From Aureimonas sp. ME7 (GTDB lineage Bacteria; Pseudomonadota; Alphaproteobacteria; Rhizobiales; Rhizobiaceae): a stretch of 64,000 bases of DNA. The stretch lies in assembly GCF_903970965.1 (NCBI RefSeq), contig NZ_CAJCKW010000012.1:1-64000 (forward strand), in the 5' to 3' direction. The translations under genes and the position numbers were made by a program. Below are positions 77 through 2,605 of the stretch, piece after piece (position 1 is the stretch's first letter; each line of letters opens with the position of its first letter). Below the pieces are notes generated by a model, which did not search any database, was not told where the DNA came from, and saw only the letters and a program-made list of their open reading frames with translations.

Positions 77-301
77 CTACCATGCATTAGATTTGAACCG
101 GACCACCTGATAGGGGCAGGCCACGACCGGCGCGAAATGGAGCCGCTTGTTTTTGAAGAGATCGGGCCGCGGCAGGGTCAGCATTTCCGGCCGCTTGTCC
201 GGCAATTTCCACAACCCAGGGGTAAGATCGCAAGGTTTGAGTAGGAACGTTGTGGGAAAGCTGAGGCAACCGTTTTTCTTGGCACCATCCGGACACCGCA
301 A
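77..301 (-). CDS. Small hypothetical ORF (doubtful)
   Basis: A 74-residue open frame that ends at the left edge of the window. I do not recognise it. The C-terminal half has strongly GC-biased third codon positions, as real genes here do (stretch around LFKNKRLHFAPVV), while the first half does not, so the true start may be an internal codon. No clear ribosome binding site. It could be noise, or a small protein divergent from the gene at 304. I see no alternative coding signal in bases 1-303 other than a 30-codon Ala/Pro-rich open stretch ending at 90, possibly the tail of an upstream plus-strand gene. Confidence 0.22.
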   Translation of the reverse strand: MRCPDGAKKNGCLSFPTTFLLKPCDLTPGLWKLPDKRPEMLTLPRPDLFKNKRLHFAPVVACPYQVVRFKSNAW

Positions 302-303
302 CC

Positions 304-678
304 ATGGCCCGCGCTCCCCATCGGCCGACCTCCTTCGACCAGTGGCTTTACGAAGAAAGCACCTGGGACCAGAAGCACGACGACCGGGAATACACGCCCC
401 AGCTTTCCGCCCGCGACGCTCATGACCAGCCCTGGCGCATTCCCCGGCTGGTTCGCGTCTACGAGACCGCCAAGCAGCTGTTCCTCGTGGTGGAGAACCG
501 CCCGCTTCCCGCCACCATCGTGACCGGGCTCTTCGACGACAAGGGATCGCTGGCGGTGACGGTTTCCACGCCGGACTGGCAGAAATTCCTTCTGCCGTTC
601 TTTCAGCTGGCCTGGCGGGCGGAAAACGAGAAGCCCGACACGGTTTCCTTCGCCATCGCCGACCGATCCAGTCTCTAG
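304..678 (+). CDS. Hypothetical protein, 124 aa
   Basis: Not recognised. The 124-residue product has no signal peptide or membrane segment and looks like a soluble cytoplasmic protein: charged N-terminal third (QWLYEESTWDQKHDDREYT), then a hydrophobic beta-rich stretch (QLFLVVENRPLPATIVTGLF) and an amphipathic C-terminus. Codon third positions are GC-rich as in the neighbours, so it is likely a real gene. The ATG follows directly on a region with no strong Shine-Dalgarno. It stands alone; the next transcript on its right, the small RNA ending near 722, runs towards it. Confidence 0.6.
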   Translation: MARAPHRPTSFDQWLYEESTWDQKHDDREYTPQLSARDAHDQPWRIPRLVRVYETAKQLFLVVENRPLPATIVTGLFDDKGSLAVTVSTPDWQKFLLPFFQLAWRAENEKPDTVSFAIADRSSL

Positions 679-721
679 CGATCGAGGGGAAATCCTCCGG
701 GTAACCGCCAAAGACTGGGCG

Positions 722-840
722 CCCAAAACAAAAACGCCTGCCGGGGGAGGACCGGCAGGCGCTAAGGGTTGCCCTTGGGCTGGGAGGAGGTAGCCCTCAG
801 GCGATCCACACAGGCTATTTGGGAGGAAGAAGCCTGTGCG
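722..840 (-). ncRNA. Anti-Shine-Dalgarno small RNA (cuckoo/CcsR/alpha-r14-like)
   Basis: Read on the minus strand, this stretch forms three successive hairpins, each showing a C-rich anti-SD motif in its loop. Stem AGCCTGTG... (831-838 with 809-816) has TTCCTCCC in the loop. A GGGCT stem (777-781 with 792-796) has CCTCCTCCC in the loop. A 9-bp stem (752-760 with 736-744) has TCCTCCC in the loop, followed by GTTTTTGTTTTG, a Rho-independent terminator. Known family: alphaproteobacterial 'cuckoo'/alpha-r14 and Rhodobacter CcsR sRNAs carry CCUCCUCCC in hairpin loops. The 5' end and promoter are not resolved; I saw no convincing -10/-35. There is no ORF in it. Assignment rests on the motif and structure. 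Confidence 0.72.
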
Positions 841-1305
841 AAACTCTATGACCAGAAGGTACGGATGTTTTGTGCGCTGCGATAGAGCCGAGATCGCATG
901 GCTGCCTTGCAGGAATGAAGGGGCTGAGCCAGCGCCGGACACGAAATGCCTACATTCCCAGCCGTCGCCTGGTGGAAATCGGTGCAAACGTCGCGCATCG
1001 GTGCAGATCATCTCTCGATACGCCATTGTCACGAAAGCGCAATCTGATACCAAATCCATCCGAGCTGCGTTGCGCCGGCGAGCTGCACCGGCTTCGAAGC
1101 CCGTCGGCTCTTGGGAGGGAGCCGGCGGGCTTCCTCGTTTCGGCCCTTTGCCGCGCGACCGGAGCCGCGGATCCAAGCGCCGGCGATGTCGACCCCGGCC
1201 GGCCGCCGCCCTAGAAACGGCTTCAAGCCACCGGTGCGGCGTGGGCGCTCGGCGGGACGTTCCACCCCACGCTCCCTCCATACCCCTAACCCCATAGGTT
1301 TCCTC
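841..1305. other. Intergenic region, nothing recognised
   Basis: About 460 bases between the small RNA and the next plus-strand gene. The open frames crossing it (plus and minus) lack coding-like codon bias and recognisable motifs. The left part must hold the minus-strand promoter of the small RNA. The right part (about 1200-1300) must hold the promoter of the gene at 1306. No clear sigma-70 boxes, repeats or hairpins stood out. Confidence 0.4.
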
Positions 1306-1602
1306 ATGCCCTCTTCGGACAACACCCTGCGCGTCATGGCGGAGGCGATCATGAAGCTGCAGGCGCAGGTTCACGCCCAGGACCTCCTGATCCAGGCGCT
1401 CTACGCCGAGCGCGCCCTCCAGCGCGGCACGTTTCCGCAGGAAGCGGCCGAGGAGGTTCTGGCTATCAACGCCCAGATGGAGCGTGGAGAGGACGAGGAC
1501 GGCTTCGAAGGCCAGACCCAGCACCTCGCCGACGTCCAGGCGGCGGTGCGCGCTTTCGCCATGGGTCTGCGGGCGCGGCTGGAGGAAAGCCAGCAGATCT
1601 AG
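1306..1602 (+). CDS. Hypothetical protein, 98 aa, helical
   Basis: A 98-residue, acidic, almost entirely helical protein (residues 8-45 look like a long amphipathic helix, MAEAIMKLQAQVHAQDLLIQ, and a second helix covers the C-terminal 35 residues). No signal peptide and no recognised domain. I chose the ATG at 1306; upstream codons in the same frame are not protein-like. A 9-bp perfect inverted repeat (1614-1622 with 1629-1637) lies just past the stop and may act as an intrinsic barrier, though it has no U-run. Function unknown. Confidence 0.6.
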   Translation: MPSSDNTLRVMAEAIMKLQAQVHAQDLLIQALYAERALQRGTFPQEAAEEVLAINAQMERGEDEDGFEGQTQHLADVQAAVRAFAMGLRARLEESQQI

Positions 1603-1792
1603 CGAGACCGTTTCGATCGACCCCCGAAGGTCGATCGCACGGCCTTCGGGCGCTCCGACCTCAGTCCCCGAGCGACCAAATGTCCGATGGCCGACCCCGC
1701 GCGGATCGGGGACAAGCCCTCGCCAGACGGCCCGCCCATTCCCTCCCCGCCACGGGGACGGGCGGGCGCCGTTTCGGGACCGGGAGGGGCGA

Positions 1793-2605
1793 ATGGGCTT
1801 TCGCGACGAGACATGGGTGGAGGCAGGCCCGGGCCTTCGCGCCCTGCGCCGCGGCACCCGGCCGATCCGCCACATCCAGATCTTCGGCCAGCGATGCAGC
1901 GGCACCAACGCGCTCGCCCGGCTCCTGGAGGGCAACTTCGGCACCGGCGTTCCCACTCGCGCCTACGGCTTCAAGCACTGGTTCGTGCCCGAACAAACCC
2001 TGTTCCACGAAGAGGTTCTGGTTCTCGTGGTGGCCCGCAACGTCTTCGACTGGCTGCGCAGCCTGCACCGCCAGCCCTGGCACGCCCATCCCGAGCTGAA
2101 ATCGCTTCCCTTCGCCGAGTTCATCCGCTCGCCCTGGCATTCCTACTGGGACGACGAGTTCGGCGGGATCGGGCCGGACCATCCGCTGCGCGGGCTGGAA
2201 ATGCCCCACGAGCGCGATCCCATCACCGGCGAGCGCTTCCGCCACCCGATCGCCAAGCGCACCGCCAAGCTCCGGCACTGGTCCGAACTCGGCGCGCGCG
2301 CCCACAACGTCGCCCTCCTGTCGCATCAGGCGCTGGAGGACGATCCGGCCGGCGTGGTGGAGGCCCTCGCCCGGCTGACCGGTCTGTCCCCGCTCGGAGC
2401 CTTCCAGCCCGTCTGGTCCTACAAGGGCAACAACAATCGCGCCTACGAGCCGACGCGATACGAGGCGATCGACCCCGCGGACCTCGCCTTCATAGGGCAC
2501 GAGGTCGACCCGGAGATCGAAGCCAGGTTCAGTCTTCTCTGCCATCCGACCGAGCGCGAGGCTCCGACCCCCGGCGAAGGGCAGTCATGGGAAAGAACAG
2601 GGTAA
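1793..2605 (+). CDS. Sulfotransferase-like P-loop protein
   Basis: 270 residues. Near residues 28-42 lies IFGQRCSGTNALARLL, matching the G-x-R-x-S-G-T-N phosphosulfate-binding loop of sulfotransferase-fold proteins. VVARNVFDWLRSLHR (about residues 80-94) resembles their second, 3'-phosphate-binding motif. By family knowledge such proteins move sulfuryl groups from PAPS, or are relatives of that fold; substrate unknown. The ATG at 1793 is preceded by a good SD (GGGAGGGG). An open frame extends upstream to 1484 but overlaps the previous gene out of frame. The neighbour on the right is an envelope lipoprotein, which gives no clear functional hint. Confidence 0.6.
   Translation: MGFRDETWVEAGPGLRALRRGTRPIRHIQIFGQRCSGTNALARLLEGNFGTGVPTRAYGFKHWFVPEQTLFHEEVLVLVVARNVFDWLRSLHRQPWHAHPELKSLPFAEFIRSPWHSYWDDEFGGIGPDHPLRGLEMPHERDPITGERFRHPIAKRTAKLRHWSELGARAHNVALLSHQALEDDPAGVVEALARLTGLSPLGAFQPVWSYKGNNNRAYEPTRYEAIDPADLAFIGHEVDPEIEARFSLLCHPTEREAPTPGEGQSWERTG

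Follow-up and report, generated by a model that had tools for sequence, protein, structure and literature searches.

A predicted stand-alone αr14 small RNA with a VtlR/LsrB-type upstream box in Aureimonas sp. ME7

RESULTS AND DISCUSSION

An αr14 RNA with three anti-Shine-Dalgarno loops

The 64,000-nucleotide stretch of Aureimonas sp. ME7 DNA analyzed here (the window) holds on its minus strand what is, judged by sequence, an ordinary, well-preserved member of the already catalogued αr14 family of small RNAs (sRNAs), which shut down mRNAs by occluding their ribosome-binding sites. We put at about 0.9 the probability that it is a stand-alone αr14 (NfeR1-type) trans-acting sRNA of about 118 nt, which would have its own promoter under a VtlR/LsrB box and would repress mRNAs at their Shine-Dalgarno (SD) regions. 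The structure, the family, the box-like sequence, and the gene order can all be read directly from the DNA. The main result is an extension of a known family.

To assign the RNA to a family, the whole window was searched with cmscan. A single match rose above any gathering score: Rfam family RF02344 (ar14), at 846-729, with 73.0 bits (cut-off, 58.8 bits) over all 123 model positions. Matches to all other families stayed below their gathering scores, in a scan that is insensitive for AbcR, as the AbcR-looking loci L099 and L103 were also without an Rfam match. With a lax threshold, the same place matched CcsR1 (RF02791) at 28.8 bits (cut-off, 65.3) and anti-hemB at 19.3 bits (cut-off, 49.5). 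The initial annotation had proposed an RNA of cuckoo, CcsR, or αr14 type at 722-840 on the minus strand. The strand and the αr14 membership were upheld by the covariance model, which makes the RNA slightly longer on its 5′ side.

The minimum-energy fold of 846-729 (-58.0 kcal/mol) consisted of three consecutive hairpins with an anti-SD motif in every loop, as had been proposed from the letters alone. Shuffled versions of the sequence averaged -35.3 kcal/mol (z = -6.97), and none of 200 was equally stable. A terminator scan recovered the last hairpin, previously described as a U-tailed terminator, with 12 pairs and a T-rich tail. The complete 9-nt motif is confined to hairpin 2, the other two loops having just its 7-nt core, UCCUCCC; this core occurs three times in the window copy, once per hairpin loop. 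The features are collected in Table 1.

Table 1. Features of the αr14 locus and its upstream region, in window coordinates
Feature	Position	Strand	Basis
αr14 small RNA gene (RF02344), three hairpins	729..846	-	cmscan, model positions 1-123 of 123; fold
Anti-SD motif UUCCUCCC, loop of hairpin 1 (DNA TTCCTCCC, 828-821)	821..828	-	Unpaired in minimum-energy fold
Anti-SD motif CCUCCUCCC, loop of hairpin 2 (DNA CCTCCTCCC, 790-782)	782..790	-	Unpaired in minimum-energy fold
Hairpin 3 (intrinsic terminator), with UCCUCCC in the loop, 751-745 (DNA TCCTCCC)	733..763	-	Terminator scan
-10-like element GTACCT (relatives CTAnnT)	857..862	-	Alignment; putative
-35-like element CTCTATCG	880..887	-	Conserved block in alignment; -35 assignment putative
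VtlR/LsrB-type box, 13/15 identical to CAATGCAGCCATGCA	895..909	-	Position and sequence conserved in 8 aligned copies
Divergent two-hairpin element, GGGAGG in terminator-like loop	1054..1143	+	Conserved; candidate second small RNA, function speculative

Three displayed motifs are the family rule

A motif in the terminator loop had been thought possibly unusual for the family. This idea was refuted. The RF02344 consensus carries an anti-SD motif in every loop, that of the terminator too, and αr14 RNAs are described as having in common three hairpins with CCUCCUCCC in each (PMC10746234), a description also given in PMC7143759. Because both the consensus and the published descriptions have them, three displayed motifs are the rule of the family and not an oddity. 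In other genera of the family, three complete CCTCCTCCC nine-mers were found in 27 of 30 loci (the best matches of 30 genomes). SmelA075 and SmelA099 have been reported with three and four hairpin loops bearing this motif (PMC3927594). The terminator loop of the window copy is, if anything, shortened, in a form typical of the genus; the motif is shorter in this genus than elsewhere, and the terminator-loop sequence GGTCCTCCCCC is present in the 3′ part of 39 of the 40 genus copies above the RF02344 cut-off.

The RNA is conserved in relatives, a comparison that the initial annotation had suggested. RF02344 matches were found in all 21 genomes of the genus, with 40 copies over the cut-off, and in 146 of the 151 genomes of a family sample (over the cut-off in 137). 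Genus rows below 36.7 bits were dropped before counting; 71 rows were kept, several of the weakest of which are AbcR-like by eye, and GGTCCTCCCCC was present in 69 of these 71 copies, AbcR-like ones included. The source genome has three copies over the cut-off and two weak matches (18.3 and 17.7 bits), which on inspection resemble chance hits. We also aligned 31 copies picked by hand, 26 from the genus and 5 from other genera. Of the 18 consensus pairs predicted from this alignment, 15 had changed on both sides with pairing kept; these pairs cover stems 1 and 3, not stem 2.

Motif completeness varied among the 40 above-threshold genus copies: 15 had two complete nine-mers, 18 had one, 7 had none, and none had three. 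Because no copy has three, the strict three-complete-motif form fails to separate members within the genus. The seven-base core was present three times in 38 of the 40, the window copy among them.

A VtlR/LsrB-type box upstream of promoter-like elements

VtlR is the Brucella name for LsrB (PMC11975290) and is also used in an Agrobacterium paper (PMC7486931). A published VtlR motif is CAATGCAGCCATGCA (PMC12595884), and a degenerate box, GCAT-N3-TG-N3-T, has been given as well (PMC7486931). The box in the window starts 63 nt before the RNA and has 2 mismatches to the VtlR motif. It fits the degenerate form when read on the opposite strand, a form that occurs five times in the window. To the S. 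meliloti LsrB motif, worded TGCA-N6-GCAT in PMC10746234, its match is inexact.

We compared the regions upstream of the genus copies that lie directly behind a DUF1127 gene (linked copies) and of those that do not. A VtlR-like motif (0 to 4 mismatches) was present within 130 nt upstream of 12 of 12 unlinked copies versus 0 of 28 linked copies; among 3550 Markov-resampled upstream sequences, 2.2% had one. The 12 box-bearing copies belong to 8 genomes, and some are orthologs of one another, so that they do not represent 12 independent events. The box was located at about -62 in six of them and at about -107 in the other six. Genome-wide, with at most 2 mismatches, the VtlR motif occurred 5 times and its reversed control 4 times; in the window, with at most 3 mismatches, there were 2 matches versus 1.16 expected. 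The motif by itself is thus weak, and the box is meaningful by its position and conservation only.

Eight stand-alone copies were aligned, two of which (L076 and L077) are below the cut-off. They have in common the box, a CTCTAnCG-like block, a CTAnnT element (GTACCT in the window), and promoter-like spacing. A scan with the sigma-70 consensus found no promoter for the window copy, and its -10 is a poor fit to CTAnnT.

A candidate for the regulator was found in the source genome, where trxB is followed by a LysR-family gene (Pfam HTH_1 and LysR_substrate; L114 4058-4954, minus strand) and, just downstream of it, by a CCTCCTCCC motif preceded by a box of VtlR type. Among the 25 NCBIfam models listed, none matched this gene at cut-off; by its gene order, which matches the published trxB-vtlR-abcR order (PMC7486931), it is a putative lsrB, and L114 is probably the lsrB/vtlR-abcR locus of this genome.

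In S. meliloti, NfeR1 is activated by LsrB and silences ntrBC through pairing at the translation start; its three motifs are functionally redundant (PMC10746234). Its known targets are ABC-transporter and ntrBC mRNAs. It is from S. meliloti NfeR1 that we infer expression, LsrB activation, and target pairing for the window RNA. LsrB/VtlR would turn on leftward transcription of αr14 from its own promoter, and the anti-SD loops would then pair with the translation start regions of several mRNAs, blocking their translation. Activation by LsrB, taken by itself, is a reasonable expectation, held less firmly than the reading as a whole. A search for the target-site pattern GGGAGGAGG upstream of ATG gave 5 sites versus 6 in the control, no excess.

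The poor -10 element would also suit a decayed or silent extra αr14 copy, as would the motifs, only one of which is complete, loops 1 and 3 being shortened. There is precedent for silence in S. meliloti, where one of six NfeR1 loci was reliably detected by Northern blotting (PMC7143759). Decay is harder to reconcile with three intact hairpins and a good terminator, and the shortening itself is shared: the loop-3 form is the one seen in 39 of 40 genus copies, and the triple core is kept here as in the other 37 of the 38 copies that have it. The box and its flanks are conserved as well. We consider a silent copy unlikely and favor a stand-alone αr14 gene with its own putative promoter.

Two gene layouts in one genus

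By Pfam coordinates, which superseded for the 40 above-threshold copies a regex-based count of DUF1127 linkage (42 of 71), 28 of the 40 lie directly behind a same-strand DUF1127 gene. The distance from the DUF1127 domain to the linked copy is 28 to 70 nt, except for one copy at 162 nt, which lies behind a tandem αr14. The remaining 12, the window copy included, have no such link. Both other αr14 copies of the source genome are of the DUF1127 type (L002, G000:C3:308950-309210; L003, G000:C9:90543-90800). In other genera, a profile built from this genus detected a DUF1127 frame upstream in 6 of 30 loci. Genomes G013 and G020, both of the genus, have 11 and 10 matches to the αr14 model, mostly below the cut-off, many of them behind DUF1127 genes.

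Linked copies also had VtlR-like motifs, farther up: with at most 3 mismatches, 15 of 28 had one 131-500 nt before the RNA, versus 0.7% of resampled sequences. At the level of sequence, these data point to a VtlR/LsrB regulon for αr14 in both genus layouts. At the C9 locus (L003), a VtlR-type box with one mismatch is located upstream of the DUF1127 gene.

In Rhodobacter, the DUF1127 gene ccaF1 gives rise, by processing of its 3′ region, to CcsR1-4 (PMC10253847, PMC8625941). The prevalence of the linked layout in the genus, which extends to both sister copies in the source genome, and the weak CcsR1 match raise the question of whether the window RNA is likewise of CcsR type and released by processing of a DUF1127 mRNA in its 3′ region, and CcsR membership had been among the initial proposals. 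No DUF1127 match precedes the window copy, however, and the CcsR1 score is far below the RF02791 cut-off; on these two grounds the CcsR-type identity was rejected. The window copy also has a box and promoter-like elements of its own, and we regard processing from a DUF1127 transcript as highly improbable.

Scarcely credible is a third explanation, that the hairpins are part of a minus-strand gene, as its terminator or within its coding frame, and that the loops arose by chance: the third hairpin is indeed a good terminator and a 592-aa open frame (178-1956, minus strand) spans the whole place, but this frame has no Pfam match, lies opposite both plus-strand frames 304-678 and 1306-1602, and has codon-position GC values (0.73, 0.56, 0.68) unlike theirs (0.65, 0.44, 0.83 and 0.77, 0.37, 0.88), the RNA fits a family of three hairpins over its full length, and we take the frame for a chance frame in GC-rich DNA.

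Relation to named systems

The stand-alone αr14 gene favored here resembles αr14/NfeR1 (Smr14C2, SmelC397; RF02344), in having three hairpins with an anti-SD core in each loop, the third being the terminator, and in standing alone, with promoter-like elements preceded by an LTTR-type box. It differs in that loops 1 and 3 of the window copy have only the 7-nt core and in that the box departs from the S. meliloti LsrB motif as worded. CcsR1-4 of Rhodobacter sphaeroides share CCUCCUCCC-type loops with it, and the sister copies in the genus follow DUF1127 genes in the way that CcsR follows ccaF1 (PMC10253847); the window copy differs in the absence of such a gene and in its low RF02791 score. AbcR (αr15) RNAs also have anti-SD motifs, and AbcR promoters in relatives are under VtlR/LsrB control (PMC7486931, PMC8844928), but the window RNA has three anti-SD hairpins.

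Within one genus, αr14 occurs in two layouts, with its own putative promoter or in a DUF1127 gene's 3′ region, and thereby connects the αr14/NfeR1 arrangement of rhizobia with the CcaF1-CcsR arrangement of Rhodobacter. The cuckoo RNA family of Reinkensmeier and Giegerich (2015) reportedly has adjacent hairpins with CCUCCUCCC loops and variable stems, and the window RNA is like it in these respects. Among the papers searched, none joined DUF1127 with NfeR1, ar14, or Smr14C2 in exactly these Latin-letter spellings, and we claim no priority.

A divergent element beside αr14

About 210 nt upstream of αr14, the plus strand carries a two-hairpin element (Table 1) that is conserved beside αr14-type copies in five genomes of the genus: the source genome, G009, G012, G018, and G016, where the αr14-type copy is below the cut-off (50.7 bits). 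Three of the five element sequences are near-identical. A model built from the five (R1) gave 78-105 bits for those five, by construction, and elsewhere at most 32.3 bits in the 21 genus genomes and at most 41.9 bits in other genomes of the 151-genome family sample. Matches outside the founding five (at most 42 bits) were rejected; the seven shown look like ordinary terminators or chance folds. The predicted right-hand frames beside the element differ between genomes (by a crude frame filter, they lie on the plus strand in the window but on the minus strand in G009 and G018), which suggests that the element travels with αr14. No such element was found near 4 of the 8 compared stand-alone copies (G015, G020, G019, and G013), where only part of the candidates was scored.

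Read on the plus strand, the element has 26 pairs, 6 of them changed on both sides; read on the minus strand, it has 23, again with 6 so changed. The plus-strand fold is the better one (-39.8 versus -34.0 kcal/mol), and all five sequences keep a U-G pair that would become a mismatch if the opposite strand were the RNA. The element has a poor U tract, and in the minus-strand reading the element is simply another CCUCCC loop.

The element could form with αr14 a divergent two-RNA module, in which a second sRNA would mimic the SD sequence with its GGGAGG loop and act as a decoy, or sponge, for the αr14 anti-SD loops; we think this a long shot. The longest complementarity to the neighboring αr14-type RNA extends over 11 nt in the source genome and 10 nt in G016, counting one G-U pair each and partly involving stem bases, and over 8 nt in G009, G012, and G018. 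Uncontrolled co-fold gains were small (-1.2 kcal/mol in the source genome and -4.5 to -5.1 kcal/mol in the other four). We offer the element as a lead, on thin evidence; if expressed, it would make it simple to test whether anti-SD RNAs are served by decoys of their own.

The convergent plus-strand frame 304-678 encodes a 124-aa protein with no Pfam or NCBIfam match and with homologues in 3 of 21 genus genomes, its own included. Its use as a synteny marker was abandoned: in G010, the RF02344 match 620 nt from the homologue is weak (36.4 bits) and AbcR-like by eye, and no clear orthologous locus emerged.

Only one of the 14 scanned loci with R1 matches, L157, holds αr14, and there the match overlaps αr14 itself. 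In L157 (1179-1550, genome G061), three αr14-like RNAs, of which two exceed the cut-off and one scores 48.8 bits, follow one another in tandem on the same strand, an arrangement reminiscent of the CcsR1-4 cluster.
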